From positions 1-37,345 of the IMG/VR virus record IMGVR_UViG_3300017917_004287: DNA of 37,345 nt; one strand, given 5' to 3'. Of this stretch, positions 1,576 through 27,382 are shown piece after piece (the first letter of the stretch is position 1; every line of letters starts with the position of its first letter). The DNA is from a virus. A program made the position numbers and the translations under genes. The notes beneath the pieces were generated by a model. That model was given only the letters and a program-made list of their open reading frames with translations, was not told where the DNA came from and searched no databases.

Positions 1576-2511
1576 TTACAAAATTCTTTTTGGAAGAATT
1601 AAAGATAAAATCCTACTAATAAGAGCAGCACAATTGATTTCTTTATCGATCCTGAAGTTAGAATGATATTGATACTCTTCAATATAAATTACTACTTCAC
1701 CAACACTTAATGGAGCATATTTTTCTACATTGTCATATAAGTATCTAAATAAGTCCTCATAATCACTCACATTTGAATCAGCAATTATTTGTCTAATGTT
1801 ATTAAACGACTTTGTTGTGGGTTTGCATAATTCCATGAGTACTTTATTTTTGTAGTTATTAGACACTAATATGCTTTTATCTACAGTGATTTCAGTACCA
1901 TTAACACTCATTTGTAGTGTGTTAAGCATTTTACGAATATCAGGATAATGTTGATTAATAACTAATTTTAAATCATCAGCACTACACTCAACTTCCTCTT
2001 TTTTAAGAATATTCATAATATGGAAAGCAACCTCATTTTTAGATGGAGGAACAATCTTTAGTACTTGACAACGTGATTGTAAAGGATCAATAATACGTTC
2101 AATATAGTTACAAGTTAAAATAAAACGAGTTGAGCGAGAATAAGTTTCAATTACATTTCGAAGTGCTGCTTGACCCTGGATTGTAATAAAATCTGCTTCA
2201 TCTAAAATGACTACTTTAAATGGTTTAAATGAGGCAACAGAAGCAAAACTTTTAACTTTTTCTCTAATTGTATCAACTCCATTTTCATCACTAGCATTAA
2301 TATAAATGTAATCACAATCTAAATTATTAATAATAAGTTTAGCTAATGTTGTTTTTCCACATCCTGGAGGCCCATAGAATAGGAAATTTTGAATATCGTT
2401 TTGATCTAAATATTTTTGGATTGTGGTTTTAATTTGTTCATTACCTACATAATCTTCTAAAATATTAGGTCTAAATTTTTCAACCCAAAGTGTGTGTTCT
2501 CTTTTACTCAT
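1576..2511 (-). CDS. 44: Clamp loader ATPase subunit, T4 gp44-like
   Basis: This is an AAA+ ATPase of the RFC-small-subunit/gp44 family, which opens the sliding clamp and loads it at primer-template junctions. Visible motifs are Walker A GPPGCGKT (residues 47-54), Walker B ILDEAD (about 102-107), sensor 1 in LTCNY (about 132-136) and the SRC motif (145-147) that completes the neighbouring subunit's active site. The length (311 aa) is close to T4 gp44. In T4 it works with gp62, which I cannot find in the window. The gene has its own promoter-like site (2516-2547) placing the -7 box only 4 nt before the ATG, so the mRNA may be leaderless. Confidence 0.95.
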   Translation of the reverse strand: MSKREHTLWVEKFRPNILEDYVGNEQIKTTIQKYLDQNDIQNFLFYGPPGCGKTTLAKLIINNLDCDYIYINASDENGVDTIREKVKSFASVASFKPFKVVILDEADFITIQGQAALRNVIETYSRSTRFILTCNYIERIIDPLQSRCQVLKIVPPSKNEVAFHIMNILKKEEVECSADDLKLVINQHYPDIRKMLNTLQMSVNGTEITVDKSILVSNNYKNKVLMELCKPTTKSFNNIRQIIADSNVSDYEDLFRYLYDNVEKYAPLSVGEVVIYIEEYQYHSNFRIDKEINCAALISRILSLILPKRIL

Positions 2512-3630: not shown

Positions 3631-5247
<1,617 letters not shown>

Positions 5248-5538
5248 TTATTTGTTTACTTTTCCTAATACTTGATTTTCAGGACCAATCCAATATTCTT
5301 CACCTTCAAATTCTAGTTTGCTAAAACCCATTGTTGGCAAAATAATAGTGTCTCCTTCTTTAAGAACAGTTTCAATCCAAGTTCCAGTTAATGAATAATA
5401 ACCTTTACCTACTGCTACTACTTCTCCAAGTTTGTTTTTTTCATTTCCCAAATCGGGAACAATAATTCCACCATATGAGGTTTCTTCAGCCTCTATTGGT
5501 TTTACGATAACTGCGTTGTATAATGCTTCTAGTTTCAT
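5248..5538 (-). CDS. groS: Co-chaperonin GroES (Hsp10), phage-encoded
   Basis: A 96-aa protein of GroES size. The N-terminus (LEALYNAVIVKPIEAEETSYGGIIVPD) has the conserved first strand and the mobile loop whose GGI-type hydrophobic tip docks on GroEL. LGEVVAVGKGYY and EGDTIILP are the usual following strands. Unlike T4 gp31 it looks like an ordinary bacterial GroES. It overlaps the upstream 107-aa gene by 4 nt and lies 3 nt before groL, so the two are co-expressed from the promoter-like site at 5873-5904. The heptameric lid would cap either the phage or the host GroEL. Confidence 0.95.
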   Translation of the reverse strand: MKLEALYNAVIVKPIEAEETSYGGIIVPDLGNEKNKLGEVVAVGKGYYSLTGTWIETVLKEGDTIILPTMGFSKLEFEGEEYWIGPENQVLGKVNK

Positions 5539-6867: not shown

Positions 6868-9462
6868 TTAAAATTTAAAAAATTTACTAATGTTTGTATT
6901 AAGAACTAAAGCTCCCCATCCTAAATCTGAATATAATGATTCTAATTTGTTTTTCATAACACTATCAAACAAACCATCTCTATCAATATACTTTTCAGCA
7001 AATTCTAAAAGTTCAGGAGCATCATCATAACCATTTAAAGCCATAACATCTATTCGATAAGGATTAGGTTTTAAATAAACAATATAAATTTTATCACCTA
7101 CTTGAGGTACAGGATATTTTTTATCCAAACCTCTAAACCTTAAAATATCACCTGTGTATATAGCAGCTTTAGTATTGATAGGACATTTATTACCTAATTT
7201 AGAAAATATTTCACCTGCTCTAGGTTCACTTGCTAAATACTCTTTCATTTTCTTTAGTCCAGTAGGTTTTAATATTTTTTTCCAATCAATTGTTCTTATT
7301 GATGTTCTAAAGTCAAGAATTTGTTTATCAATGTCTTGTTTTGGTTTACCAAACATAATTTCATTGATAATATGTTCTCCAAAATTCCTAAACAAAGGTG
7401 GAAAATTTGATTTCATCAAATCTAATCCTTTAACATCCAATTCATCTACTGGTACTCCTTCTTTGTTAACAATATGTTGGGCGTATCTCCTCTTACCTGC
7501 AAAATAACCTCTATCAAGTACAACTTCTTGTTTTAGTTCAAAATAATGAAGTCCATCATCTCCTAAATTAAAAGCACTTCTAGCAAACTCACCAATAAAT
7601 TTATTAGCCATTGATTGTAATTCAGTAGCAATTACTAATATTTTATTAATTACATCTTCCCTATTACTAAAATCAATATTTGGATGTCTTGCTATTAATA
7701 GATCTTTACATTGGATAAACAATGAATCTGTATCACTAGTAACAATATAATCTTTATGAGTTTCATTACCTAATTCTTTATTTAGATATTCATTCATATT
7801 CCTAATACTTTCTTGTAATAGTCTTTGACCTGTTAAAGTAATAGCTTTACTAATAAATTTATTTCCATCAGTATACCTCCAACCGTTAATAGCAAATACA
7901 CCATAAACATCATTCAATTTAATTTTATAAGCATGTTGTCGTCTATCATAAAAGGCGCCCATAACAGGATCATTATCTACCTTATATGCTTTCTTCATCA
8001 ACTTCTTATATTCTTGTCTTTTAGCAAACCAGTCAGATAAAATTTCACAAACAACACTTGATTTATCTTTACGAAACATTACTCCAGGAGCAGAAATAAT
8101 TAAATCATTAGTTTCAATAATATTAATTAAGTCTTTAACTTTAATTTCAGTTCTAGACAATCTTCTATCTTTCCTAACTTTTTCAATATAAATTATTTTA
8201 TCAGGATCTAAAGATTTAAGTTCATTTAAAGACCATTGATTATCGTATTTATCTTTATTGACAACACGTCCTACCAATGTTTCAATACCCATGTTAAGTG
8301 AGCGGATAATAGACGGATATAGTGAGGTAAAATCCAAATCAATAACCCATTCATACAAACCAGGTGTAGGATCTTTTAAATAACCTCCAGCATATTCCTC
8401 TTGTAATGTTTTTAATGCTGGATTGTAAGTAGTTGGTTTATTAGGTGAAACTATTCCTTTACGTTTTAAATAAGTTAAAATAGCACCCTCATTTAACATT
8501 GTGGAGAAATAAATTGCCTCATAATCAGTATGACATAGATGACAAATTGTAACCGTTAGTTCAATAAATTTCATTCTGTTCTCTAACTCAACAATAATTT
8601 CTACATCTCGTAAGTTATACTCAATAAACTTATCTACATCCTCAGCAAATAATTTATCTAATGAACCTTGATATTCAATTTTTTCTAATTTAGCATATTT
8701 TTTACCTATGTCACCTAAACGATAAGATGGTTCTTGTTTCATGATATACTTTTTAAATAAAAGCATATAGTCAAGATGATTAATACCTGCTAAATTAACT
8801 GGTTGTTCTGGGAATTGAGGTGTAAAGCTAATCTTGTTTATAGGAGATAATGAGTTAGCTAATGGTTCTCCTAATACTTTTTTAATACGATAATATAAAT
8901 AAGGTATATCAAAAAAACCACTATTCCAACCTGTAATAATTGTTGGGTCTAATTCATACCATTTATCTAAAAATCCACTTAACAATTCTTTTTCTGATGG
9001 GTAAGGCATAATAACTTTACCTTCAGACTCAGCTTTAGACATTTTACCTTCTTTATCTAAAACTAAACAAAAATATTTTTTAGAATTATGGTCATATAAA
9101 GCAACAGCTGTTATTTCACCTTTAGGATCTTTAATGTTTTCCTCAGTTAATGCTCCTGCTATCACACACTCTATATCTAGATAAACAATGTTGTGAGATT
9201 TAGGAGTATCATCTGTTTCATAATATTGGTCAACTAATAAACGAGTAATTTTATCTACATCTTTTTCAAAGTATTTAGGATCTTTCCAATCATCCATTTT
9301 TCTAACAGGTGATACTTTAGTACCTTCTAAAGTTTCAAATTCACCATCTTCATCAGCTACATAAAGTGTAGGCCAATGTTGAAATGATTTGAACCCAGTC
9401 CATCTATCATCTCTCAAATAGTACTGTCTTTCATCTCGATCGTAATAAACTGCTTGATACAT
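6868..9462 (-). CDS. 43: Family B replicative DNA polymerase, T4 gp43-like
   Basis: An 864-aa polymerase with an active-looking 3'-5' exonuclease: Exo I YLDIE (Asp96, Glu98), Exo II GWNSGFFDIPY, Exo III YNLRDVE. Polymerase motifs follow: motif A DLDFTSLYPSII (about residue 378), motif B KLNDVYGVF, and motif C SDTDSLF (about residue 575). The C-terminus ends in SKFFKF, resembling the clamp-binding tail of T4 gp43. It is the replicative enzyme. Its promoter's -7 box ends 4 nt before the ATG, so translation may start on a leaderless mRNA. A second, family A-like polymerase gene lies at 26093-27382. Confidence 0.97.
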   Translation of the reverse strand: MYQAVYYDRDERQYYLRDDRWTGFKSFQHWPTLYVADEDGEFETLEGTKVSPVRKMDDWKDPKYFEKDVDKITRLLVDQYYETDDTPKSHNIVYLDIECVIAGALTEENIKDPKGEITAVALYDHNSKKYFCLVLDKEGKMSKAESEGKVIMPYPSEKELLSGFLDKWYELDPTIITGWNSGFFDIPYLYYRIKKVLGEPLANSLSPINKISFTPQFPEQPVNLAGINHLDYMLLFKKYIMKQEPSYRLGDIGKKYAKLEKIEYQGSLDKLFAEDVDKFIEYNLRDVEIIVELENRMKFIELTVTICHLCHTDYEAIYFSTMLNEGAILTYLKRKGIVSPNKPTTYNPALKTLQEEYAGGYLKDPTPGLYEWVIDLDFTSLYPSIIRSLNMGIETLVGRVVNKDKYDNQWSLNELKSLDPDKIIYIEKVRKDRRLSRTEIKVKDLINIIETNDLIISAPGVMFRKDKSSVVCEILSDWFAKRQEYKKLMKKAYKVDNDPVMGAFYDRRQHAYKIKLNDVYGVFAINGWRYTDGNKFISKAITLTGQRLLQESIRNMNEYLNKELGNETHKDYIVTSDTDSLFIQCKDLLIARHPNIDFSNREDVINKILVIATELQSMANKFIGEFARSAFNLGDDGLHYFELKQEVVLDRGYFAGKRRYAQHIVNKEGVPVDELDVKGLDLMKSNFPPLFRNFGEHIINEIMFGKPKQDIDKQILDFRTSIRTIDWKKILKPTGLKKMKEYLASEPRAGEIFSKLGNKCPINTKAAIYTGDILRFRGLDKKYPVPQVGDKIYIVYLKPNPYRIDVMALNGYDDAPELLEFAEKYIDRDGLFDSVMKNKLESLYSDLGWGALVLNTNISKFFKF

Positions 9463-10345: not shown

Positions 10346-11038
10346 TTAGATCTGATGTCCTCCATTGTTAATTTTCAAGCTGTCAAAAAATTCTTTACGT
10401 GCTTGATTTTCATTTTGTAAAAATACTCCTGATGCCTTAGTAGTAACCATTGATGCACCTTGGTGTTTAACACCCCTACATGACACACATGAGTGATTGG
10501 CAACTACTGTTACAATTACACCTTTATTGTTTTCACAAATTTTATCTACTGCTTGATGAATTGCTGAAGTGAGTTGTTCTTGAATAGCTCCTCTACGACC
10601 AAAATGTTCTACAATACGGTTCAATTTAGACAAACCAATTACAGAACCATTTTCACCTACAATGTAACCAATATGAACTACACCTCCAATTGTTTGATGG
10701 TGATGAGAACACATTGATGTAAGTGGAATGTTTCGTTCAATAACAATACCATCATACCCATCACTTGGGAATGAAGTAATATCAGACATAGCTTCATAAC
10801 GACCTTTCCATAAATCAAACACATAAGCTTTAGCTACACGACGAGGTGTATCTGAACTGTTTGGATCATTTCTCCAATCGCATTGTAAAGCATCTAAAAA
10901 TTTACCATATGCCTCAGCAGCCTCATCTACCATTGCCCATTTTTCTTTTTCAGTAAATGGGAAACCAGGTGCGATCCCATTAGCATAACCTGTTTTTACA
11001 CACTCTAAATCGAGTGTAAATGTTTTTTTATTTTCCAT
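10346..11038 (-). CDS. folE: GTP cyclohydrolase I (FolE)
   Basis: The first enzyme of 7-deazaguanine synthesis, converting GTP to dihydroneopterin triphosphate. The zinc and active-site motif CSHHHQT (about residue 110) and the later NHSCVSCRGVKHQGASM segment are present. DTPRRVAKAY, ERNIPLTSMCSHH and GLSKLNRIVEHFGRRGAIQEQLT are classic family blocks. The length (230 aa) is normal. It is one of four pathway enzymes in this operon, with QueD, QueE and a QueC-like protein, which argues for DNA modification rather than folate synthesis. It lies 42 nt downstream of the phosphoribosyltransferase gene. Confidence 0.96.
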   Translation of the reverse strand: MENKKTFTLDLECVKTGYANGIAPGFPFTEKEKWAMVDEAAEAYGKFLDALQCDWRNDPNSSDTPRRVAKAYVFDLWKGRYEAMSDITSFPSDGYDGIVIERNIPLTSMCSHHHQTIGGVVHIGYIVGENGSVIGLSKLNRIVEHFGRRGAIQEQLTSAIHQAVDKICENNKGVIVTVVANHSCVSCRGVKHQGASMVTTKASGVFLQNENQARKEFFDSLKINNGGHQI

Positions 11039-11080
11039 AACGTATGTTGTAATATAATAATAATTTTTTTAATAAACAAA

Positions 11081-11596
11081 TCAAATAGAATAAACGTTTG
11101 ATAAGTTTCTATGATGTCCATTTTCATCATCTAACCCATAACCTACTAACCATTCTTCATCAACATCAAATCCATTATAATGAATTCCATCTACTGGTAG
11201 AATTAGGCTTGGGGATGATTTTCGTTTAAATAAAGTGACCACTGAAATTGTTTTTGCTCCTTTAAAGTCCAACTCAGCAATCAAGTGTTGGATTGTTTTT
11301 CCTGAGTCAGCAAAATCATCAATAAGAAAAACATGTTTGTCTTTAATATCACATTCAATGTCTTTAGTAATTTCAATTTTACCTTGCTTTTTACCAGTAT
11401 ATGATTTTGCTCTAATAAAATCACACTCAACAGGAATTGTTAAGTATTTTACAAATTCAGTAAATACCATAAACCCTCCATTAAGGATCCCTACCATTAT
11501 AAATTTACTATCATCTAAATAATGGGCATCATTTACTTCTTGAGCTAACTCATGAATACGATTTTCAATTTGTTTATGATGGAGATACAATTTCAT
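11081..11596 (-). CDS. hpt: Hypoxanthine/guanine phosphoribosyltransferase-like protein
   Basis: A 171-aa type I phosphoribosyltransferase. The PRPP-binding motif VFLIDDFADSGKT (about residues 90-102) is clear, and GILNGGF and the flexible loop region DFIRAKSYTGKKQG match hypoxanthine-guanine enzymes (the loop normally reads SSYG). It should join a 6-oxopurine to PRPP to give the nucleotide. Placement inside the 7-deazaguanine operon suggests that it recycles guanine released by DpdA or handles a 7-deazaguanine base; this is inference. Its ATG lies 23 nt inside the upstream thioredoxin-like gene. Confidence 0.85.
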   Translation of the reverse strand: MKLYLHHKQIENRIHELAQEVNDAHYLDDSKFIMVGILNGGFMVFTEFVKYLTIPVECDFIRAKSYTGKKQGKIEITKDIECDIKDKHVFLIDDFADSGKTIQHLIAELDFKGAKTISVVTLFKRKSSPSLILPVDGIHYNGFDVDEEWLVGYGLDDENGHHRNLSNVYSI

Positions 11597-11825
11597 ATAA
11601 AACTTTTTTAATTTCTTTTACACCTTCAAATTTATGTTTACCATTTTCATCTTCAATTACTAGAGTAGGTACCCATTCAATATCATAATCCTCAGTAATT
11701 AAAACATTATCATAAGTGTTAATTAATTTAATACCTAATTCTCTTTGAAATTCAAAAACAATAGGTTTTAGTTCAGCACATTTACCGCATTCATCAGTAA
11801 AGAAAAAAGTTAATTGTGGTTTCAT
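11574..11825 (-). CDS. Thioredoxin-like protein with CGKC (83 aa)
   Basis: A short thioredoxin-fold protein with a redox CXXC motif in FFTDECGKCAELKP (residues 8-21) and the cis-proline strand WVPTLVIED. The active dipeptide GK differs from thioredoxin (GP) and glutaredoxin (PY). It could supply electrons to the phage ribonucleotide reductase or serve a thiol step elsewhere. It is the second thioredoxin-like gene in this operon (the other is at 13495-13740). An AATATTTATAA motif lies 3 nt before its ATG. Confidence 0.8.
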   Translation of the reverse strand: MKPQLTFFFTDECGKCAELKPIVFEFQRELGIKLINTYDNVLITEDYDIEWVPTLVIEDENGKHKFEGVKEIKKVLYEIVSPS

Positions 11826-11828
11826 TTT

Positions 11829-11839
11829 TTATAAATATT
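11829..11839 (-). promoter_or_regulatory. AATATTTATAA motif inside the modification operon
   Basis: Minus-strand AATATTTATAA ending 3 nt before the ATG at 11825 and overlapping the stop of the thioesterase gene. It could allow separate, later expression of the thioredoxin-like, phosphoribosyltransferase and folE genes. Confidence 0.4.
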
Positions 11840-12239
11840 AAAGTTTAGAATCAGGAGTTTTAAACATTCTTTTAACTTGTTCAGAAATAGGAATAGGAAC
11901 ACCTTCTTCATCTACACGAACAAAAGTCATATTAGTAGCTAATAAAACAACCTCATCTCCTCTAAATACATTGTATGCTCTTGCTTCTACATTAAATGTA
12001 GCAGATGTGTTTCCTATTTTAACTAATTTAGCATAGATTTTAACAAGTTGTTTTTCTTTAGCAGGTTTTTTAAATACACATTGATCCATAGCAATAGTAA
12101 TCATGTTTTGACTTCTACATTTTTCCATTGCGTAGGCAGCAACCGCGGCATCTAACCAGCTGAGCAATTTGCCGCCGAATAGATTGCCGTGGAAACCTAA
12201 ATCTGATTTTTTAACTGGATGTGTAGATAATAAGTCCAT
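11838..12239 (-). CDS. Acyl-CoA thioesterase-like hotdog protein (133 aa)
   Basis: A hotdog-fold thioesterase of the YciA/acyl-CoA hydrolase type. HGNLFGGKLLSWLDAAVAAYA (residues 17-37) contains the family's N/G-G-x-L-x-x-x-D active-site helix, and the following strands (QCVFKKPAKEKQLVKIYAKL and TSATFNVEARAYN) fit the fold. Such enzymes cleave acyl-CoA thioesters. It shares one base with the end of queE (TAATG coupling), so it is made with the pathway enzymes. A thioesterase is unexpected in a phage modification operon. Whether it acts on CoA esters or on another thioester or amide-like intermediate is unknown. Confidence 0.85.
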   Translation of the reverse strand: MDLLSTHPVKKSDLGFHGNLFGGKLLSWLDAAVAAYAMEKCRSQNMITIAMDQCVFKKPAKEKQLVKIYAKLVKIGNTSATFNVEARAYNVFRGDEVVLLATNMTFVRVDEEGVPIPISEQVKRMFKTPDSKL

Positions 12240-13024
12240 TAAACAGCTCTCTTTTGATCATATGAAATGATATGATCTCTACCAGTCCAATTATAACCCA
12301 TTTCAAATGCTTTTTCTAATGAAATAGGATATTGTTTAATCAATTCTTCTCTATTATCACCTGCTGGCATTAACCATGTTTTGTTTTTAGGAATATTCAT
12401 TTCAACCCTAAATGCCTCAATTTCATCCATTGTAGCTTGAGTACCATCATAAACTGGTTTATAATGATAATCAGTATGGTAATCTAAAGTTTTACGAATT
12501 GCTTCTTTATTTAAACGAAGTTTATTATGTTGATCGATCATTTTCTGATCCACCAACTTACCCATTGGAGTGGTAACGTCAAGGCGAGGAACAGAATTAC
12601 TAAACTTTGGAGATAAAGATACCAACCCAAATGGATAATCGGTTTCAATAAAGTGACTACCTTCTGTTTCAATGGTTATACATATACCACGTTCATGAGC
12701 AAAATGAGTTAGTTCATTACATAAATCAGGAACCATTGTTGGTGAACCTCCTGTCAACATCATTTCTGTAATTTCAGGATTTTCATCATAGATTTTAATG
12801 ATATCATTGAATGTGTAAATTCCTTTTTCGGGGTGGATACTTGTATACCAAGAATCACACCAACCCCCTGCTCCAAACCAACATCTGTGAGTACAACCTG
12901 TAACCCTAATAGCTACTGTTGGACGACCTTGTCTTGAACCTTCACTTTGAATACAAGTGTAAACTTCAAGTACAGGTAATTTTTTGTTATAGTCGAGAAT
13001 ACGACCTGGTTTTTTATTTTCCAT
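12239..13024 (-). CDS. queE: 7-carboxy-7-deazaguanine synthase (QueE), radical SAM
   Basis: A radical-SAM enzyme that rearranges 6-carboxytetrahydropterin to 7-carboxy-7-deazaguanine. SEGSRQGRP and the cluster loop GCTHRCWFGAGGWCDSWY are typical of QueE, with cysteines 44, 48 and 56. The spacing is C-X3-C-X7-C, against the usual C-X3-C-X2-C, so the cluster loop is lengthened by five residues. MLTGGSP (about residue 89) is the SAM-binding GGEP-type motif and TIETEGS a later one. The length (261 aa) slightly exceeds the family norm. It starts 1 nt after the queD stop and overlaps the thioesterase by 1 nt. Confidence 0.92.
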   Translation of the reverse strand: MENKKPGRILDYNKKLPVLEVYTCIQSEGSRQGRPTVAIRVTGCTHRCWFGAGGWCDSWYTSIHPEKGIYTFNDIIKIYDENPEITEMMLTGGSPTMVPDLCNELTHFAHERGICITIETEGSHFIETDYPFGLVSLSPKFSNSVPRLDVTTPMGKLVDQKMIDQHNKLRLNKEAIRKTLDYHTDYHYKPVYDGTQATMDEIEAFRVEMNIPKNKTWLMPAGDNREELIKQYPISLEKAFEMGYNWTGRDHIISYDQKRAV

Positions 13025-13025
13025 A

Positions 13026-13502
13026 TTAATTTTCTGTATAAATTGAACTGTTTTTATCTGCTTCCCAACACTCTACTTTTGTTACTTTTACTCGACCACC
13101 ACCTTGTTTAGAAAACACATCATTGAATTTATCATAAACCAATTTAGCAGCTGACTCAGCACCAATTTTATCCATTACTCTCAAATGGCATACTGTTGGA
13201 TTCATTGACTCAAACAAGTCCAAATATGGATCATCTTTTTCAATCAATAAAGTATGATCCCACATATAATCCATCCAATCTTTTAAACCATTTCCTACAG
13301 GAACAGATTTAAACCCACCATAATCTTGAATCCAATTCATTTCATCTAACTGGTTTTCTTCTAATGGTTCCACTGATTCAAACCATACTTTAAATTTTAA
13401 AGCATAGCCATGTAATAATTGACAATGTGAATGCTGTGCTTTCCATTGTCTAATAGCAACTGAATAGTTGTCAAATAGTTTTGTTGATTGATACTTACCC
13501 AT
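13026..13502 (-). CDS. queD: 6-carboxytetrahydropterin synthase-like protein (QueD)
   Basis: A pterin synthase of the PTPS/QueD family, converting dihydroneopterin triphosphate to 6-carboxytetrahydropterin. The segment AQHSHCQLLHGYALKF (residues 22-37) holds the catalytic cysteine (Cys27) and zinc histidines. The usual HGH pair reads HGY here, so the third zinc ligand is changed or supplied by another residue such as His26. MNWIQDYGGFK, WDHTLLI and VECWEADKN match the remaining active-site blocks (Asp, His, Glu). The gene lies directly upstream of queE and overlaps the thioredoxin gene by 8 nt. Confidence 0.9.
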   Translation of the reverse strand: MGKYQSTKLFDNYSVAIRQWKAQHSHCQLLHGYALKFKVWFESVEPLEENQLDEMNWIQDYGGFKSVPVGNGLKDWMDYMWDHTLLIEKDDPYLDLFESMNPTVCHLRVMDKIGAESAAKLVYDKFNDVFSKQGGGRVKVTKVECWEADKNSSIYTEN

Positions 13503-13740
13503 TAATAAATTGCATTACTTGTTCATAACTTTTAATACCTACAAATCTACGAACTTCTTGTCCGTTTTCTACAAGTATTACTGTTGGCACACTAGATACA
13601 TTTGCTGATCGAGCTCTATCTATTTCATAATCAACATTAATTTTTTCAACAAACATTTGTTGAGATACTTGATCCATAATAGGACCTAAAGTTTGACATG
13701 GTACACACCATGGAGCTGAAAAATACATAATTTGTTTCAT
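13495..13740 (-). CDS. Thioredoxin (81 aa)
   Basis: A small thioredoxin with the active site APWCVPCQTLGP (Cys12 and Cys15) and the cis-proline strand VSSVPTVILVENG. It is shorter than bacterial thioredoxin (about 105 aa), having lost the first strand and helix, as T4 thioredoxin NrdC also is short. It probably reduces the phage class II ribonucleotide reductase, whose C-terminal cysteines need a thioredoxin. It overlaps queD by 8 nt and the upstream membrane protein gene by 4 nt. Confidence 0.92.
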   Translation of the reverse strand: MKQIMYFSAPWCVPCQTLGPIMDQVSQQMFVEKINVDYEIDRARSANVSSVPTVILVENGQEVRRFVGIKSYEQVMQFING

Positions 13741-13949
13741 ACTAGTTCTTCAATGATTCCAATAATTTCACTAATAATTAAGATAAAAACACCCAACCCA
13801 ATACTATATACTAGTGCTCCATATCCAGTTAATCTAACTGCTGATTTAAGGAAACTAACTAATTGATGTTTTTTAGGATCAGGATGTTGTTGTTTTTTGT
13901 TAATGATCTTATAATGAAGATCAGGATTAATAATGCTTTCGTTTTTCAT
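13737..13949 (-). CDS. Small single-span membrane protein (70 aa)
   Basis: An unrecognised protein with a basic N-terminal half (NKKQQHPDPKKHQLVSFLKS) and a hydrophobic C-terminal segment (about residues 42-66, GYGALVYSIGLGVFILIISEIIG). It probably sits in the inner membrane with the basic half in the cytoplasm. It overlaps both neighbours by 4 nt (ATGA), so it is co-translated with thioredoxin. A membrane protein between queC and queD is unexpected; no function is assigned. Confidence 0.55.
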   Translation of the reverse strand: MKNESIINPDLHYKIINKKQQHPDPKKHQLVSFLKSAVRLTGYGALVYSIGLGVFILIISEIIGIIEELV

Positions 13950-14161
13950 ATAATTTCTTCTTCTTTAATTAACTCGGCTCCAAAATTTTCTTCTAAGAGC
14001 CGAGTTGTATTTTCTTTAAATAATGGTTTAGCTTGAGACCAATCATAAGACCATTGAATAGATCCTTTTACTAATCCTGTAAACACCTCACCATGTTGGT
14101 TAACCACAACATACATTTGTGGATAGTCTTTTGATTTTCTATACTGTCTTCGAATGCTCAT
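13946..14161 (-). CDS. Hypothetical protein (71 aa)
   Basis: A short, unrecognised soluble protein starting MSIRRQYRKSKDYPQMYVVV and containing a W/Y-rich middle (GSIQWSYDWSQAKP) and an acidic end (AELIKEEEII). Its start lies 22 nt inside the 3' end of the queC-like gene, and its end overlaps the membrane protein gene by 4 nt. Context places it in the modification operon only by position. Confidence 0.55.
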   Translation of the reverse strand: MSIRRQYRKSKDYPQMYVVVNQHGEVFTGLVKGSIQWSYDWSQAKPLFKENTTRLLEENFGAELIKEEEII

Positions 14162-15008
14162 CTAGTATTGAAGATACGTATTCTTTTACATATTCCCAAG
14201 CTACTGGTCCAAATTCATCAGCATATTGTACAGGGTCTTTACGACCTAGTTTAATAAATGCTTCTACTCGTTCAACAGATGATGCTGATTTGTAATCACT
14301 AAACCATTCTTCTGATTCAACTGTATCTTCTCCTTCATTATAGTAAACTTTTAATTTAATGGGTTTGTAAGATGTATTTGTTTTAGCATATACCTTGTCA
14401 AATTTCAAATGTAAATACTCACAACATCTTTCTCCATCTTTCAAAATATCAAATTTATCACCTAACAAGTAAGGAGTATAAAGATATACTTTTTCAGAAC
14501 CCCAGTTACCTAATTTAAAGGCCTCAAAATCAGCATCTCTAAATTCTTGTCTACAGTCAGGATAAATTGAATGATCACCAGCATGGATTCCCATAGCAAT
14601 AGCACATTTTTTACCTGTTTGTTCTGTAATTGATAAGGCAGCTGCTTGAATAATTGAACTAAAGATTTTGTTACGATTAGGAACAACTGTTGCTTTCATA
14701 TTTTCCTCAGCGTAATGACCTTCAGGAACATCATCTCCGCCTTTTACAAGTGCTGAATTGAGTAATTTGTCAAGTCCTTTTAAAGTAATTACCTGATGTT
14801 TTACTTTAGCATAGTATTGTTCATCCTCATAACGAGAATGAGCATTTAAATACTTTACTAATTCCTTAGCTCGTTGTAGTTCAATATTATGTTTTTGCCC
14901 ATAATCAAAGGATAGTGCTGTAACTTCATAGCCATCGGCGAGTAGATGAAGCAGCAAGGTGGAGCTATCCATACCTCCACTTAATGATAATACTGCTTGT
15001 TTTGTCAT
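14139..15008 (-). CDS. queC: QueC-like 7-deazaguanine enzyme lacking the zinc cysteines
   Basis: A PP-loop ATPase of the QueC family, which normally turns 7-carboxy-7-deazaguanine into preQ0 using ATP and ammonia. The ATP loop LSGGMDSS (residues 9-16), SFDYGQKH (34-41), VVPNRN (108-113) and YPDCRQEF (149-156) are intact. The zinc site is not. Ordinary QueC has TCY or SCY followed by CGxCxxC, while here the matching positions read TSY (212-214) and SDYKSASSVERVEAF (237-251), with no cysteine after residue 196. At 289 aa it is also longer than usual (about 220-240). It may still activate the carboxylate but make a different product; a diverged 7-carboxy-7-deazaguanine decarboxylase-type enzyme (DpdL has been proposed in such phages) is one option. 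Confidence 0.88.
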   Translation of the reverse strand: MTKQAVLSLSGGMDSSTLLLHLLADGYEVTALSFDYGQKHNIELQRAKELVKYLNAHSRYEDEQYYAKVKHQVITLKGLDKLLNSALVKGGDDVPEGHYAEENMKATVVPNRNKIFSSIIQAAALSITEQTGKKCAIAMGIHAGDHSIYPDCRQEFRDADFEAFKLGNWGSEKVYLYTPYLLGDKFDILKDGERCCEYLHLKFDKVYAKTNTSYKPIKLKVYYNEGEDTVESEEWFSDYKSASSVERVEAFIKLGRKDPVQYADEFGPVAWEYVKEYVSSILDEHSKTV

Positions 15009-15706: not shown

Positions 15707-16192
15707 TTATTTTTTTATATATATTTTTTCTTTAGTTCCTGCTGTTTGATCATACCACTGTTCCTTATTCATATCATACCATCTGTAAGGTAATTCAGGA
15801 TCATCATTCCAACCATGAGCACCATAATAAATAGCATCTTTTCTTAATAAATTTGCTCTATGTGACTTATGAAAATCATCATCTCCAAACCAAGAAGGCA
15901 TAGTAATTTTTTCTTCAATTACTTCTTTTTTCATGGTATTGTTTTTACCTCTTGCAACCCAAACGTCTATAGAGTCGTTTAAATATTTTTTTAACGCGGG
16001 TATGTTATCTCTAAACATCTGGCTTATAGGGTGGTTTATGCGGCCTTTAGAATATGGTTTACCGGTTAATGTTGGTCTACCTTCTAGACCAGCTATTAAT
16101 TGATAAGTTTCTACTCTTTGTTTACCTAAACGTTTGTCATCTAGAGATTCAAGTGACTTTTTAAAATCTGGATATGGTAAAAATACTTGCAT
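15707..16192 (-). CDS. Pyrimidine-dimer glycosylase-like protein (161 aa)
   Basis: The N-terminus MQVFLPYPDFKKSLESLDD followed by KRLGKQRVE, then NHPISQMFRD, MPSWFGDDDF and HKSHRANLLRKD matches the widespread small-protein family often annotated as pyrimidine dimer DNA glycosylase (endonuclease V/DenV-like, Pyr_excise superfamily). True T4 DenV has a different N-terminus, so the activity is not certain. The start shares one base with the dpdA stop (TAATG), so it is strictly coupled to the DNA transglycosylase. It may act on DNA or on modified bases; it could also be plain UV repair. Confidence 0.65.
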   Translation of the reverse strand: MQVFLPYPDFKKSLESLDDKRLGKQRVETYQLIAGLEGRPTLTGKPYSKGRINHPISQMFRDNIPALKKYLNDSIDVWVARGKNNTMKKEVIEEKITMPSWFGDDDFHKSHRANLLRKDAIYYGAHGWNDDPELPYRWYDMNKEQWYDQTAGTKEKIYIKK

Positions 16193-20750: not shown

Positions 20751-22115
20751 TTAGTTAGATAGTTCGAAAAATCGTTGTTTAATAAGTGCCTTGTCTGATG
20801 AATCTATACCTCCAAAAGTAGTAGATTTAGTTGGTGTTGATGATGTTTCTTCGTCTTCCTCTAAATAGGATGATACCTCAAAATGCCCTGTAGAGGTATC
20901 TACTTTGACAGAATAGGTCATACCGTCCATTCCGTATCGATTTTTCATAATGTGAAATCTTCCTGTCCCATTTACTTTATCTTGACGTTTCCTTGATAAG
21001 GATATAGCAACATCGGTAACCATCATTTTATCATAGCTACCCGCTGCTTTATCACCTTCAATAATATCATCTTTTGCACCAGCTCGGTTTACTTGAGACA
21101 CTGACCAAATAGGTAGATTCAATTCTCTAGCAAGACCCTTAGTACTAATATAAATATCATCTATCTCATCCTTACGCTCACGATTATTCTTTTTTGAACG
21201 AAGAAGATCTACATAGTCAATAATAATTAAATCTGGTTTGAAATCTAAATCAATACATTTCTTAATATGGGATTCAATTGTTGAAATAGATGCTTTACCT
21301 GTTGGATATTCTTTGATAATTAATTGTCCTTCTAATGTATTAACAACTTCTTCAATTTTATTTTTATGTTGAGTAATATCTTGAACAGATATGTTAGTGA
21401 AAAAAGCGTCATATCTTCGTCCTACATAATCAGATCCTAACTCAAGTGTATAATGTAAAACATTATAACCTAATTTAACAGCATAGCCACCTAAAGCAAC
21501 TAGTGACCAAGATTTACCACCCCCAGGACTACCAAAAATCAATCCAAAGTCTCCATTACCTAATCCACCTTGTAGTAGTTCATTAAATGATTCCCAAGGT
21601 GTAGGAACAATAGTTCTGTGATTTTCTCTATATCTAGACTCAGTATCTTTATTATACTCGTGGCCTAAATTTTTGTCTTGACCCGCTTTAAGTGCGTTAT
21701 CAATCATGAACCTAATAGAGTCATAATCTCCGGCGTTTAGAAATTCTACGCTTGTTAATAACGCTTTTTTAAGCTGTTGGTTTTTACAAAATCCTGAAAA
21801 TTCTTCTTCAACATACTTAAGATCTTCATCTGATGCTCTATATGCTTCCCTAAGTTGTTCTTTGATTGATACTTGTAAAACTTCATTATCAATTTTCTTT
21901 AACTCTACTTTCAATACATCCATTGAAGGTGTAGTATGGTATTTTTGATAATATTTTAAAATTTCTTTAATAATCCATTTGTGTGCTTGGTTATCAAAAT
22001 ATTCTTCACTTAACACATCTTGAATATTCAATAGAAATTCTTTATGTGTTAATAGTGAAGACAGTACTTTGACCTGGAATCCTGTTCCATAGGCGCTTAA
22101 ATTGTTGAGTGTCAT
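20751..22115 (-). CDS. 41: Replicative DNA helicase, DnaB/T4 gp41-like
   Basis: A hexameric RecA-fold helicase (454 aa) that unwinds the fork and would partner a primase. The N-terminal helical domain is about 140 aa; the motor domain has Walker A GSPGGGKS (195-202), Walker B LIIIDYVDLL, the catalytic-glutamate region HYTLELG, and the later WSVSQVNRAGA (motif H3/H4) and RFHIMKNRYG (arginine-finger region). Length and layout fit gp41. The acidic, serine-rich tail ends KQRFFELSN. It starts 5 nt after the exonuclease gene, with the reductase following. Confidence 0.92.
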   Translation of the reverse strand: MTLNNLSAYGTGFQVKVLSSLLTHKEFLLNIQDVLSEEYFDNQAHKWIIKEILKYYQKYHTTPSMDVLKVELKKIDNEVLQVSIKEQLREAYRASDEDLKYVEEEFSGFCKNQQLKKALLTSVEFLNAGDYDSIRFMIDNALKAGQDKNLGHEYNKDTESRYRENHRTIVPTPWESFNELLQGGLGNGDFGLIFGSPGGGKSWSLVALGGYAVKLGYNVLHYTLELGSDYVGRRYDAFFTNISVQDITQHKNKIEEVVNTLEGQLIIKEYPTGKASISTIESHIKKCIDLDFKPDLIIIDYVDLLRSKKNNRERKDEIDDIYISTKGLARELNLPIWSVSQVNRAGAKDDIIEGDKAAGSYDKMMVTDVAISLSRKRQDKVNGTGRFHIMKNRYGMDGMTYSVKVDTSTGHFEVSSYLEEDEETSSTPTKSTTFGGIDSSDKALIKQRFFELSN

Positions 22116-22120
22116 ATAAC

Positions 22121-23158
22121 TTATTTTCTAAAACTGTTTAATACTTTAAATGTGTTGTTAATTGTCAATTCTGGATCTTTCATTAATCTACCTAATCCAT
22201 CTTCATTATAAAGTAACATAAATGCTTTAGTATTCAAAACTGGAGGTAATTCTTGTGTAAACTCTGTTAGATATTCTTTTTCATTATTATCTACTAATGG
22301 ATTAGCTAAATCCATAATCTTGTAATTAGTTTTTAGTCTTTCAGCGTCATGTAATATCCTAGCATAAACTACATGTTCTTTAAGTTTACTTTTACAAATT
22401 TCAAGTAAATCATCAAAAGTCAAAACACGTTCTGCTAATTCAGGAAACTTTTTAGCTACACCTTTTTCACCTAAGCCTTTAATACCTTCTACTTTATCTG
22501 ATTGGTCTCCTAAAAGTGTTTTATAAAGAATAAAATTCTCAGCTAAAACACTAAAATTATCTTTTACTGTTTGTTTTGTATAAAATTCTTTTTCTGATGG
22601 TCTAAATAATGTTACATCTTTATTTATCAATTGAACAAAATCTTTATCATTAGATACAATAAATACTTTAGAACCATATTTACTAGGCATTATATCACTT
22701 AAGTAAGCTATAATATCATCAGCTTCTACTTTATCTATACCAATTGTTTTTACTGGTAGGCATTTTAGATAATGAACTATTCTTACAATTTGATTAACCT
22801 TAGCGTCATGTTCATCTTCTAAAGAATCAAATACATCCCAGTTAGTAATTCTAGCTAAGTGACGACCTGATTTGTATTCAGGTACTAAGTTTTTTCTATT
22901 AACAGATGAACCAGCACCATCAAATACAACATAAACAGATGTTGGTTGAATATGATTAACTAGATAATTTAATGAACGAATAAAACCTCCTAAACCACCA
23001 ACATGAGCTCCATCTTGGTTTACATTTTTCATCATTGCAAAGTTTCTAAAAAATAAATTTAATCCATCAATCAATAATACTCGCTCATGAGGATTAGTCA
23101 GTATTTCTTCTTCTTGACTAACTTTGTTTAGGAGGTTTAATAGTTCGTTCTTTTTCAT
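22121..23158 (-). CDS. rnh: 5'-3' exonuclease / RNase H, T4 Rnh-like (FEN family)
   Basis: A 345-aa flap nuclease that removes RNA primers and displaced 5' ends. The N-terminal block LLIDGLNLFFRNFA has the first metal-binding Asp; VYVVFDGAGSSVNRKNLVPEYKSGR is the helical-arch region; VEADDIIAYL and FIVSNDKDFVQLI supply the acidic metal ligands; LGDQSDKVEGIKGLGEKGVAKKF is the H3TH DNA-binding motif. I chose the ATG at 23156-23158; a TTG at 23176 is a less likely alternative. The -7 box of its promoter ends 6 nt before the ATG, giving a nearly leaderless transcript. The helicase gene follows. Confidence 0.92.
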   Translation of the reverse strand: MKKNELLNLLNKVSQEEEILTNPHERVLLIDGLNLFFRNFAMMKNVNQDGAHVGGLGGFIRSLNYLVNHIQPTSVYVVFDGAGSSVNRKNLVPEYKSGRHLARITNWDVFDSLEDEHDAKVNQIVRIVHYLKCLPVKTIGIDKVEADDIIAYLSDIMPSKYGSKVFIVSNDKDFVQLINKDVTLFRPSEKEFYTKQTVKDNFSVLAENFILYKTLLGDQSDKVEGIKGLGEKGVAKKFPELAERVLTFDDLLEICKSKLKEHVVYARILHDAERLKTNYKIMDLANPLVDNNEKEYLTEFTQELPPVLNTKAFMLLYNEDGLGRLMKDPELTINNTFKVLNSFRK

Positions 23159-23164
23159 CTTAAA

Positions 23165-23196
23165 TAAAGATAACAAATAATTTCAGATAAGCCAAG
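23165..23196 (-). promoter_or_regulatory. Promoter of the rnh-helicase-nrdJ operon (YTTGG-N19-TATCTTTA)
   Basis: Minus-strand CTTGG at 23192-23196, 19-nt spacer, TATCTTTA at 23165-23172, then 6 nt to the ATG at 23158. A short inverted repeat (ATAAGC-TTG-GCTTAT) overlaps the -33 element right after the uvsX stop. Confidence 0.68.
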
Positions 23197-23197
23197 C

Positions 23198-24292
23198 TTA
23201 TTCTTCATCCATTAATTCTAGAGGAATATCTCTAGTTGATTCATTCCAGTCTGAATTATCTTCGATAACTTCAAATTTTCCATCTCCAAGAATATTTTTC
23301 CATTCATGAGAATGTGCTTTCTTGTAAGTGTCAATTTCCTTTTTATCATCTTCAATAAAACCATGAATTGTTGCAAGTACAACACTTTTTGTTTGTAATC
23401 CTGTAACGTGGTTTTTATCACATGATACTTTAGTACGAACAGCAAATTCAACCTCTTTACCATCTTTAGTTGCTTTAATTTTACTAGTACCACTATTAGT
23501 AATATTACCAAAAGTCAATACAATTGAAGCATCCAAAAACATAGTCTCACCATTTTTCATTTTCATTTTAGGTTGTGACATAATATTTTCAGCGGGAGCA
23601 ACCCAAATTTTGTTAATAGCAACCATTGAGTTGGTGTAAGGTGCATTTTCTTTTCTAGATAAAGGAAAACGTTGGTTAATAAAGTTACCAAATTGTTGAG
23701 ACATAGCTCCTGCATTCCACATAGGATTGTTTTTATTTGCTTCAACACTCATTTTACATGGAATTGAACCAATTGAATCCCAGAAGAAACACAAATCATA
23801 AGGCAAATTACCTTTTTTCTGTTCATCCAACAAATCAGCAATAAACTCAGCTACATCTTCAATAGTGCCCAAAGTAGTTCTGTCACGATAAATGAAGAAA
23901 CCATTATGGTCAACTACTTCTCCTGTAACTTCATCAACTACATCATCAAGTTGGAAACCCATTGTACGAGCGTGTTCCCATGACCATTTCATTTCTGTAA
24001 TAATGAATACAGGTAAAATATTCATTTTTTGAGCGCTGATTGCTAACTCAAGTAATGCTGTTGTTTTACCTGTATTACTATGACCTCTTAATAATGTGAT
24101 GTGACCTACTGGAGCGCCTGTAACTGAAATTGAATTTTGTAATGCTTTTGAAAATGGAATCCATTTTTGTTCTTTGAATTTAACATTTCCATTAAGCAAT
24201 TTTTTCTCTTTGAACTTCTCTAAGCTAAAGTTAGCTTTAAGTTCAGCTGAGACAGCTTCCGTTAGCGAATCGCTTTTTTTAGGTTTTGGCAT
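23198..24292 (-). CDS. uvsX: RecA-like recombinase, T4 UvsX-like
   Basis: A 364-aa RecA-fold protein (T4 UvsX 391 aa) for strand exchange and recombination-dependent replication. Walker A is GHSNTGKTT (70-78), Walker B lies in CFFWDSIGSI, and VAINKIWV plus AGAMSQQFGNF match UvsX blocks. The N-terminal residues are basic and the C-terminus is acidic (IPLELMDEE), a feature that regulates filament assembly in T4. It lies 24 nt after the gp32-like gene, so recombinase and single-strand binding protein are co-expressed. Confidence 0.94.
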   Translation of the reverse strand: MPKPKKSDSLTEAVSAELKANFSLEKFKEKKLLNGNVKFKEQKWIPFSKALQNSISVTGAPVGHITLLRGHSNTGKTTALLELAISAQKMNILPVFIITEMKWSWEHARTMGFQLDDVVDEVTGEVVDHNGFFIYRDRTTLGTIEDVAEFIADLLDEQKKGNLPYDLCFFWDSIGSIPCKMSVEANKNNPMWNAGAMSQQFGNFINQRFPLSRKENAPYTNSMVAINKIWVAPAENIMSQPKMKMKNGETMFLDASIVLTFGNITNSGTSKIKATKDGKEVEFAVRTKVSCDKNHVTGLQTKSVVLATIHGFIEDDKKEIDTYKKAHSHEWKNILGDGKFEVIEDNSDWNESTRDIPLELMDEE

Positions 24293-24316: not shown

Positions 24317-25153
24317 TTAGAAAGGCAAATCGTTGTCCTCATCTTCGTCAAACAAAGCATCAAATTTTTCAGCTTTGTTAGCTTTAGTAGCTAATGGTGT
24401 TTTCAAAGCATAAGCTTTAACCGGAGCTACTTCTACTGGTGTTTCTTCTACATCCTCATCAACATCACCTTCTGCTTCTTCTGGTGCCAACCAATTTTGC
24501 AATACTTCCTTAATTGCTTCAAAATCCATTTTACGTTGAATTTCTAACAATACAGGTTGTTCATTAAGGAATGTTTTAATCAAAGAAGCATCATCACTCA
24601 AGGCAGTTGTTTTAGGTTTAATCCTGATTGATGATTTAAGACCTTGTCTTCCACCGATGTCGCCTTTAACTACATCTACTGTGAAGTCTCTACCTTCATG
24701 AATGTCGGTGTAGTCTCCATAATCCTCATCTTCAGCAATACCTAAAAGCTGCATGTAAATTTCTTTACCAAATTCCCAAAGACGTACTCCTTTTTCTTCT
24801 TCACCTCTAACAATTACAGGAGCAAAAACTCGCATTTTAGGATCTAACTTTTTAGCTAGAACCCAATTGTCCTTTTCATTAGTTTTTCTTAGTTGTGAAG
24901 CAAATTCTACGATTGGGTCTTTTTCACCCCAGTTAGTTAAGGCGTAGATAGGGAATTTTGAAAATCCATAGTGTACAAAAACCTCTTGAAATGGGTTTTG
25001 TGGATTCAATTTTGAAGGAACAATACGAATTTGGTACTTTCCTTCTTCTTTTGGTTTCCAGTAAACTTTTGAGTAATCAATTTTTTCTTTCTTGCCTGGT
25101 GTGTTCGTCGACTGTAATGTGTTTAGTCGCTGTTTGATAGCATTAATGTCCAT
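24317..25153 (-). CDS. 32: Single-stranded DNA-binding protein, T4 gp32-like
   Basis: A 278-aa gp32-type protein. The N-terminal basic helix (MDINAIKQRLNTLQ) would mediate cooperativity. The core (YWKPKEEGKYQIRIVPSKLNPQNPFQEVFVHYGF and WVLAKKLDPKMRVFAPVIVRGEEEKGVRLWEFG) is an OB-fold pattern shared with phage gp32 proteins. No cysteine is present, so the zinc site of T4 gp32 is absent. The C-terminus is long and acidic, ending in EDEDNDLPF, close to the bacterial SSB tip (DDDIPF) that recruits partners. A hairpin and promoter lie in its 96-nt leader. Confidence 0.9.
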   Translation of the reverse strand: MDINAIKQRLNTLQSTNTPGKKEKIDYSKVYWKPKEEGKYQIRIVPSKLNPQNPFQEVFVHYGFSKFPIYALTNWGEKDPIVEFASQLRKTNEKDNWVLAKKLDPKMRVFAPVIVRGEEEKGVRLWEFGKEIYMQLLGIAEDEDYGDYTDIHEGRDFTVDVVKGDIGGRQGLKSSIRIKPKTTALSDDASLIKTFLNEQPVLLEIQRKMDFEAIKEVLQNWLAPEEAEGDVDEDVEETPVEVAPVKAYALKTPLATKANKAEKFDALFDEDEDNDLPF

Positions 25154-25249: not shown

Positions 25250-25645
25250 TTAATTTACTTTTGTAAAATATCCTTTAGAATACAAAGCATCAACCCATTT
25301 TTTAGGCATAGAGACTATAGCTTCGTCGGCAATTGGTCCTAACGCTTTTATGAATTCTTCTGGTCTGTTTATATTTTTTAAAGTGTACTCTTTACCCTCA
25401 AATTCTTTAAATTCATTGGGCAATACTTCAAAAACATCTCCAACTTGTGGTTGAATTTTTCTATCGTAGAATGCAGAAATTGCACTTTTTAAATACTGCA
25501 TTATTTTAGAGTCTGGGGATTTTGTTACTTTGAACTTATCTCCTATTTCAAAATTAGATATTGAATTTTCATTTAAACGAGATTGAGTAGTAATTTTGTT
25601 TTCTACTAACCATTGTTTAGCATTAAAGTTATCTGCTTTTCTCAT
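25250..25645 (-). CDS. Hypothetical protein (131 aa)
   Basis: Unrecognised, soluble and charged. Residues 5-25 (DNFNAKQWLVENKITTQSRLN) form a conserved-looking N-terminal helix with the ENKxTxxSRL pattern; the rest (IGDKFKVTKSPDSKIMQYL, then QPQVGDVFEVLPNEF) suggests small beta structures with W and Y near the end (KKWVDALYSKGYF). The gene has both a possible AATATTTATAA element 4 nt before its ATG and read-through from the polymerase-like operon. No function is assigned. Confidence 0.6.
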   Translation of the reverse strand: MRKADNFNAKQWLVENKITTQSRLNENSISNFEIGDKFKVTKSPDSKIMQYLKSAISAFYDRKIQPQVGDVFEVLPNEFKEFEGKEYTLKNINRPEEFIKALGPIADEAIVSMPKKWVDALYSKGYFTKVN

Positions 25646-25649
25646 GTGA

Positions 25650-25660
25650 TTATAAATATT
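25650..25660 (-). promoter_or_regulatory. AATATTTATAA motif before the 131-aa gene
   Basis: Minus-strand AATATTTATAA ending 4 nt before the ATG at 25645; its first base is shared with the stop codon of the 25660-26124 gene. Confidence 0.4.
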
Positions 25661-26124
25661 TAAAGTTCAACAATCTTATAAACTTTTGTATTCAATTGTT
25701 TCAACTCATTATGGTTGGTTAACAAAATACAGTTTTTATAGTGTTGCCAGTTTACACGGTAAGATGGATCAACCACACCACCGTTCAATTTTTTAATCAA
25801 ATCATTCAAAGCATTAATTGTATATAAGGTATTTGTTTCTTTTTTCCTATGAACCAAAATAGTGTTCATTGGAATACCTTCTACATTGCCTTGTTCAACA
25901 TTGTATGTGACAACATATTCATCTGTGCTCTTAACATAAAGCACAAACATTTTATTATACATTATAGTATATGCCCTTGTTAATTCGCTTATTAAACTTT
26001 CCAAGTTTTCTAAGGGCGTAAAAGTGCAAAACAGTTTATTATTCAAATCTATTGTATTAAAGGGTTCAAAATCGTATCCCTCATACATATAGTCATTCTC
26101 CTGTAAAATCATATGTTTTTCCAT
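25660..26124 (-). CDS. Hypothetical protein coupled to the family A-like polymerase (154 aa)
   Basis: Unrecognised. An open frame begins at a TTG (26157), but the ATG at 26122-26124 (MEKHMILQENDYMYEGYDF) is the better start; a second ATG lies four codons on. It overlaps the polymerase-like gene by 32 nt. The protein has two clusters of hydrophobic strands (KMFVLYVKSTDEYVVTYNV and NTILVHRKKETNTLYTINAL) and ends with a helix (NHNELKQLNTKVYKIVEL). Tight overlap suggests joint expression, perhaps as an accessory to the polymerase-like protein, but this is only position. Confidence 0.55.
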   Translation of the reverse strand: MEKHMILQENDYMYEGYDFEPFNTIDLNNKLFCTFTPLENLESLISELTRAYTIMYNKMFVLYVKSTDEYVVTYNVEQGNVEGIPMNTILVHRKKETNTLYTINALNDLIKKLNGGVVDPSYRVNWQHYKNCILLTNHNELKQLNTKVYKIVEL

Positions 26125-27382
26125 AACTTGTTTTTGTTTGTAATTTATATTTATCAAATATTTGTTTTATTTCATTTTCTATGCTCTCTTCCCCCTCACC
26201 TAACTCAAATAAGAAACTATCATAAGTGTAAAGCACAATCTTAGTTTTCCTACCCTTCAACAACTTATGTATATCCATCAATATATAAGTGTTCATAGCA
26301 CTCTCCACATTCTGCAACATATAGTTAAAAAGTTTCTGTGGATTCATATTTTCCAGCTCACTTTTTTTAAGACAATAACCTGAAACCGGTATAGTAACTT
26401 GACCGGAGTTATTGAATGCCTCCCAGTTATTGTCAATAAATTTCTTTACTTGTTGAAAAAATTCAAGGTGTTCATACTCTTTAAATATGCCTCCGTATAG
26501 TTGCTTAAACGTGATTTCTTTTGCTTCTTTATAACTCGTACCGTAGAGGTTTGCGAAGGCTTGGTGAACATCCACATCGCCAAAATCGTAGGCAAGCAAG
26601 CGACCAACAATATTAGGATGGTATGCACTAATATCGAACTCCACAAACCCATGACTCGATATGAAGCTTCTCCTTGAGCCATTTTCTTTGTTTATTGCTG
26701 CGAAATTAACGCCATTAAAAGAGTTACTTGGTCTACGTGTTGTTGTAGCCAAATTGTAACTTGTGTAAATCCGATCATCTTGGATTGAATAAAATTCATT
26801 ATTGAGTTCATAGTGTTTATCAAATTCATATTTGTTTATTTTTAATCCGTTTTTTTCAATTCCAAAAAATGCTAATACTACCTTATTGTTATAAAAATCA
26901 AAATATGGTGGTAATTCCTTTGGTATTACACTACGAACTTGATTATAAATATGTTCACATTTTTCGTAGTGCTTGCTTAGTGGTATTAGTTTATTTACCT
27001 TTGGATAATTCTTTTGGTAGTTATAAAAATGATTATGGGCCGAAGTATCGGATTGTATATACGTAGGATTGAGTATGGAAAGGTCGAGCAAGCTTTTAAT
27101 TTGAAAATAATATAAAGCTGTTTTCTTATCACGTACCCATACTTTATTTATCTTACGTAATAAACCGTCTATAGCCGTCTTATTAACACTAAATGTCTCA
27201 CTATGGTCAATACATAACATATAACCTTTAGTGTCGTTAAACGGTCTAATATACACTAAAGACAACCCATTTAAAGCAGGGTGAATACTATCATGATAAG
27301 GAATTATTTCAACGAATGCCTCTTGTATTGTTTTATGAGTTAAATACTCTAGTGCTTCTTCTGTTTCTATTATCCAAAACAT
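26093..27382 (-). CDS. Divergent family A DNA polymerase-like protein (429 aa)
   Basis: The C-terminal two thirds carries the family A polymerase order: YNLATTTRRPSNSFNGVNFA (209-228, TGR-like block with Arg216), motif A FVEFDISAYHPNIVG (Asp250), motif B KEAKEITFKQLYGG with Lys288, Phe292 and Tyr296 at the O-helix spacing, LQNVESAMNTYILM (Q-helix region), and motif C VLYTYDSFLFEL (Asp388), where the usual HDE reads YDS. The first about 150 residues look like a 3'-5' exonuclease domain (HPALNGLSLVYIRP) but the DxE active site is gone. The length is short for family A (T7 polymerase 704 aa). It has its own promoter. A repair or auxiliary polymerase is likely; a structural relic is possible. Family B gp43 is encoded separately. 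Confidence 0.75.
   Translation of the reverse strand: MFWIIETEEALEYLTHKTIQEAFVEIIPYHDSIHPALNGLSLVYIRPFNDTKGYMLCIDHSETFSVNKTAIDGLLRKINKVWVRDKKTALYYFQIKSLLDLSILNPTYIQSDTSAHNHFYNYQKNYPKVNKLIPLSKHYEKCEHIYNQVRSVIPKELPPYFDFYNNKVVLAFFGIEKNGLKINKYEFDKHYELNNEFYSIQDDRIYTSYNLATTTRRPSNSFNGVNFAAINKENGSRRSFISSHGFVEFDISAYHPNIVGRLLAYDFGDVDVHQAFANLYGTSYKEAKEITFKQLYGGIFKEYEHLEFFQQVKKFIDNNWEAFNNSGQVTIPVSGYCLKKSELENMNPQKLFNYMLQNVESAMNTYILMDIHKLLKGRKTKIVLYTYDSFLFELGEGEESIENEIKQIFDKYKLQTKTSYGKTYDFTGE

Follow-up and report, generated by a model that had tools for sequence, protein, structure and literature searches.

A divergent family A DNA polymerase of the divPolA1 type encoded alongside a gp43-type family B polymerase in an IMG/VR virus record

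Why would a phage that encodes a complete replicative DNA polymerase carry a second, strongly diverged polymerase gene of another family? The question is raised by IMG/VR virus record IMGVR_UViG_3300017917_004287, of which the whole analyzed stretch of 37,345 nucleotides is called the window here. A preliminary description of its sequence had placed at 26093-27382 a second polymerase, similar to family A and with its exonuclease domain dead, in addition to a separate full family B gp43 at 6868-9462, and had suggested a specialized repair, gap-filling or modified-base-tolerant enzyme. The family B gene is indeed complete, with both the exonuclease and the polymerase Pfam domains and the LDIE, SLYPS and DTDS motifs. 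The reading frame of the second polymerase occupies exactly the positions given, on the minus strand, with an ATG start and 429 codons. The genes that matter for the argument are as follows.

1576..2511, minus strand: AAA+ clamp-loader ATPase (gp44-like), accessory to the regular polymerase (PF00004, 2.6e-19; DNA_pol3_delta2, 1.2e-11; Gp44_lid, 0.0024)
3631-5244: GroEL, in the region of the window's family B polymerase
5248-5538: GroES, in the same region
6868..9462, minus strand: gp43-type family B DNA polymerase (PolB), the regular, proofreading, replicative enzyme (PF00136, 4.5e-34; PF03104, 5.3e-19; phrog_262, 1.1e-153)
10346-15008, minus strand: 7-deazaguanine gene set (QueC, QueE, PTPS/QueD-like protein, GTP cyclohydrolase I), between an RNR gene and PolB
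15707-16192, minus strand: DenV-like pyrimidine dimer DNA glycosylase (PF03013, 1.5e-16)
20751..22115, minus strand: DnaB-like (gp41) replicative helicase (phrog_19, 1e-82; 66 of 66 loci)
22121..23176, minus strand: 5'-3' exonuclease, homologous to T4 RNase H and to the 5' nuclease portion of bacterial Pol I (PF02739, 8.9e-33; 76 of 76 loci)
23198..24292, minus strand: UvsX/RecA-like recombinase (phrog_97, 1.4e-19; 93 of 94 loci)
24317..25153, minus strand: gp32-like single-strand DNA binding protein, SSB (PF08804, 2.6e-11; 111 of 111 loci)
25250..25645, minus strand: 131-residue protein between the 142-residue protein gene and SSB, a poorly conserved, cargo-like slot (22 of 125 loci)
25660..26088, minus strand: 142-residue protein of no reliable family, immediately downstream of divPolA1; conserved neighbor and candidate partner
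26093..27382, minus strand: divPolA1, a 429-residue divergent DNA polymerase of family A (predicted structure with Foldseek, profile-profile match, homology to the immuto protein), with an exonuclease-like domain at about 1-160, a vestigial thumb at about 183-205 and the palm and fingers at about 206-429

Assignment of the 429-residue product to family A depended on its relatives. Searched alone, the window protein matched no Pfam family, PF00476 included, gave only weak polymerase matches in a single-sequence PHROG search and retrieved nothing significant among PDB chains; T7 gp5, entered as a lone sequence in the profile comparison, gave no match. The protein is too diverged for the standard libraries, so that its detection needs relatives. 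PF00476 was matched by five of the 62 divPolA1 relatives (best E-value 4.6e-11), and the protein of Flavobacterium phage immuto scored 43.9 bits, above the cut-off of 34.3. Since the window protein itself does not reach the PF00476 gathering score, its placement among the family A polymerases (PolAs) rests on alignment-to-alignment comparison and on fold. In the former, a profile of 60 divPolA1 members matched a profile of eight regular PolAs with a probability of 97.4, an E-value of 1.2e-11 and a score of 97, whereas the highest score of 100 column-shuffled profiles was 24.8 and that of the reversed profile 17.9. Without the three most distant members the E-value was 1.8e-10, and a search of the PDB with a 62-member profile found Klenow fragment (1.9e-4).

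The fold leads to the same assignment. The AlphaFold2 model, for which the window and the fetched loci were the only input sequences, had a pLDDT of 91.6 and a pTM of 0.89. Foldseek returned 216 PDB matches at E<=0.001, and the 50 listed are all family A polymerases, with Klenow at a TMq of 0.74-0.76; in a viral structure library the model matched phage PolAs. Palm, fingers and a vestigial thumb can be recognized in the predicted fold. The product of 26093-27382 is thus almost certainly a divPolA1 family A polymerase, and the preliminary claim of a second, family A-like enzyme besides PolB withstood two of the checks proposed with it, structure prediction and profile search, the latter by way of relatives.

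The divPolA1 family was described in 14 phages, including immuto, as an extra PolA carried besides the regular DNA polymerase (DNAP), with a dead exonuclease and a short thumb; its role was inferred only as far as 'involved in replication' (Yutin et al., 2024, Virol J 21:200; PMC11348598). The family is therefore already published, and the window protein, which has every feature given by these authors, is a further member and not a new discovery. In the same study, two DNAPs of different families were found in only two phage subtrees among 18,382 genomes, in agreement with the earlier remark that a T4-like phage with both families would be unusual. The immuto homologue (YP_010114413, annotated 'DNA polymerase family A') is 36.6% identical to the window protein at 90% coverage (tblastn E-value 2e-77; profile match 420 bits). 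The two proteins are homologous over their full length, come in addition to a regular DNAP, have lost the exonuclease acids and have a truncated thumb, and the replication genes downstream of them stand in identical order. The regular DNAP lies near GroES/GroEL in both phages, but in immuto it is a PolA, where the window has PolB.

Other PolAs are more distant. The divPolA2 protein of barbaviruses (AUR84708) is likewise an extra PolA-related protein of about 430 residues beside a regular PolB and has no working exonuclease, but it has a different N-terminal domain (PMC11348598) and no sequence relationship to divPolA1; identity with divPolA2 was rejected, as AUR84708 scored 0 bits against the divPolA1 profile. 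Among solved structures, Klenow fragment and apicoplast PolA share with divPolA1 the exonuclease, palm and fingers fold and the core catalytic residues, at an identity of only 15-18%. A literature search, in which the name divPolA1 turned up only in the article of Yutin et al. and in its preprint, found no biochemistry of any divPolA1. The text of Yutin et al. (PMC11348598) does not discuss the substitutions in the nucleotide pocket, the candidate partner gene or the wide distribution, which are described below and added here.

Within the first 160 residues no exonuclease was found by sequence profile, and the exonuclease claim therefore rests on fold and on the published relatives. Residues 196-429 alone could yield a TMq of at most 0.55 by arithmetic; since the value obtained with Klenow exceeds this ceiling, the N-terminal exonuclease-like domain must superpose too. 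Where DTE would be expected, its first strand has VEIIP and holds no DxE pair (EII, residues 25-27), and an invariant Lys86-Lys87 pair probably falls at the position of the exo II helix, in a pairing read from secondary structure. The domain is thus present with its catalytic acids replaced, and the error-correcting 3'-5' exonuclease part appears dead, as the preliminary description had it. The thumb is likewise reduced: in the model it comprises about 23 residues (183-205), which lie between the iEkNGi tether and the TxTxR motif and include a single short helix, as compared to about 100 residues in Klenow.

In the polymerase domain, profile alignment pairs Asp250 with Klenow D705, Lys288 with K758, Phe292 with F762, Tyr296 with Y766 and Asp388 with D882. 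The residues earlier assigned to motifs A, B and C were all correct, numbering included, and motif C indeed reads YDS in place of HDE. Among the 60 members, R217 (Klenow R668), D250, K288, F292, Q357 (Q849) and D388 are invariant, and Y296 (59/60), N353 (N845; 59/60) and H273 (H734; 58/60) are nearly so, and the catalytic palm residues are thus conserved. Four further positions differ from Klenow. His255 occupies the steric-gate position of E710 in all 60 members, whereas all eight regular PolAs have Glu; Tyr replaces R754 in 59 members (Y284) and H881 in every one (Y387), and the position of E883 is Ser or Ala throughout. The regular PolAs all retain E710, R754 and H881, and two of them differ at E883.

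These positions have known functions. The sugar is gated sterically by Glu710 in E. coli Pol I and by Glu480 in T7 polymerase (PMC13228545; Astatke 1998, as cited in PMC13228545 and PMC4882331). R668, Q849 and H881 have been reported to form the fidelity switch of PolA, and R668 weighs more in Pol I catalysis than D882 itself (PMC11122685). By the alignments, the divPolA1 active site is uniformly re-plumbed, with an unusual pocket that is fully conserved across the family. The changes at E710, R754, H881 and E883 all fall within this nucleotide pocket and could make the activity very weak or altered. The uniform loss of proofreading, thumb and sugar steric gate poses a sharp biochemical question.

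The gene order around divPolA1 is equally uniform. In nearly all loci divPolA1 is followed by the 142-residue protein gene, SSB, UvsX, the 5'-exonuclease and DnaB, an order that holds at 28% identity; the window too has the downstream replication genes in the order typical of divPolA1. The 142-residue protein gene adjoins divPolA1 in 127 of the 128 loci that are long enough, including those of immuto, Mel-JY01 and LR756508, and a reverse scan from SSB found divPolA1 in 51 of 52 loci, the exception being a contig that starts inside the 142-residue protein gene. The 142-residue protein is conserved about as well as divPolA1 or better. Searches gave no reliable family match for it; PHROG 'tape measure' matches (best 8.8e-5) were judged unconvincing, and its AlphaFold2 model was poor (pLDDT 53), with a fold that is not usable. 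It is encoded by a core gene of divPolA1 phages, down to the Microcystis and 484-kb phages, and its constancy makes it a concrete candidate partner of divPolA1.

The slot ahead of SSB is variable. Small genes found in it (window 25250-25645, minus strand; L004:9738, L020:9780 and L212:1439) encode a common N-terminus, M[RK]KADNF[ND]xxxWLxENKITTQSR, followed by unrelated sequence. This N-terminus is possibly a packaging or processing tag.

Phages with two DNA polymerase families are rare among sequenced isolates, but at least 594 IMG/VR stretches match divPolA1, along with a few bacterial MAG contigs, and the gene apparently belongs to the core of a large group of phages, most of them aquatic. 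It is present in the complete Microcystis phage Mel-JY01, where it is annotated 'hypothetical protein', and at about 28% identity in a 484-kb phage (LR756508); a close relative, on a 165-kb contig (G001), is 94% identical to the window protein. The family is thus far larger than the published 14 phages. The dN/dS values of 0.08-0.22 obtained against twelve relatives show that the gene is under purifying selection. One copy, at about 40% identity, lies in a Rickettsiaceae MAG bin (L181; JAIOYD010000025.1) and may reflect a binning error or an unusual host.

For the function of divPolA1 we favor, with a probability of about one half, exo-minus, low-processivity gap filling together with the neighboring SSB, recombinase and 5' nuclease, a role of which we infer the activity, the substrate and the partners; the repair or gap-filling function suggested in the preliminary description is thus plausible. 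Genome copying would not be its task because the PolB, of gp43 type, proofreads, has a clamp loader and fills that job. Instead, divPolA1 would synthesize short patches, with low processivity and no proofreading, on recombination intermediates or on gaps coated by gp32, in concert with the neighboring UvsX, 5'-3' exonuclease and helicase. The nuclease at 22121-23176 corresponds by homology to the 5' nuclease portion of bacterial Pol I, so that it might serve together with divPolA1 as a 'split Pol I' in Okazaki-fragment maturation and gap repair. The retained core catalytic residues, purifying selection, the fixed gene order, the coexisting regular polymerase and the DenV-like glycosylase all count in favor of this role. 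It counts against it that the neighborhood is a replication module and not a dedicated repair operon, and that T4, to our knowledge, matures its Okazaki fragments and repairs its DNA without an enzyme of the divPolA1 type.

The altered pocket allows other readings. With His at the steric gate, the enzyme might admit ribonucleotides or extend RNA-containing primers, for instance by elongating primase products or by making mixed RNA/DNA patches before gp43 takes over. The uniform exchange of a residue that gates the sugar in both E. coli Pol I and T7 polymerase, together with Ser or Ala at E883, fits such a change, but the sugar-checking helpers Phe292 and Tyr296 are retained and His is itself bulky and may serve as a gate. 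Moreover, long divPolA1 relatives have a separate zinc-finger/Toprim primase, so that primer synthesis is not vacant; on the same ground a need for divPolA1 as primase was rejected. We consider an altered sugar choice unlikely. A wider proposal, in which the rebuilt sugar/triphosphate pocket changes substrate choice (e.g., toward ribonucleotides or mixed primers) and the 142-residue neighbor acts in place of the lost thumb, as a partner devoted to processivity, strikes us as rather improbable. The loss of the exonuclease acids, the thumb, R754 and H881 would also suit a catalytically silent or regulatory polymerase relative, which would play a structural part by binding to primer-template or gapped DNA and bringing in recombination or replication proteins; DNA may be bound by the invariant Lys86-Lys87 pair, which the model places next to where the exonuclease site used to be. 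However, the residues essential for nucleotidyl transfer, whose loss would be expected in a silent protein, are invariant down to 28% identity, which leaves such a factor a doubtful explanation.

A gap-filling role also has to be weighed against the converse assignment, in which divPolA1 is the main replicative polymerase and PolB accessory. Regular DNAPs sit in less conserved neighborhoods, and divPolA1 among replication genes (Yutin et al.; PMC11348598); divPolA1 also varies less within the group than does the regular DNAP, a PolA in immuto and PolB here. In addition, PolA, PolB and PolC were looked for and not detected in a 140,278-base record with divPolA1 (G013, locus L223), which either is incomplete or comes from a phage that has no other polymerase than divPolA1. 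Against this, divPolA1 has no proofreading and almost no thumb, so that its fidelity and processivity should be low for a genome of more than 150 kb, and the intact PolB has both its proofreading motifs and a clamp loader. A gp43-type PolB is present in eight of nine IMG/VR relatives tested, in Mel-JY01 and in the 484-kb phage, and a regular PolB was found by Pfam in seven of eight further records. A main replicase is a very unlikely reading. The modified-base tolerance suggested in the preliminary description, here for 7-deazaguanine DNA, fared worse still. The window does contain QueC, QueE, PTPS-type (QueD-like) and GTP cyclohydrolase genes, but QueC occurs in only seven of 11 divPolA1-bearing records and was not detected in the complete Mel-JY01, the 484-kb LR756508 or the 165-kb contig, and records that have QueC do not differ in their pocket residues from those that lack it. 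The idea is weakened by these relatives and is now scarcely probable, the comparison of the 11 records showing no special link between divPolA1 and the 7-deazaguanine pathway.

The PolB genes of several divPolA1 phages, at LR756508:259402-267257 (L003) and in G014, G011 and G017, occur in pieces or shortened frames, as by an intein, an intron or a gene split.
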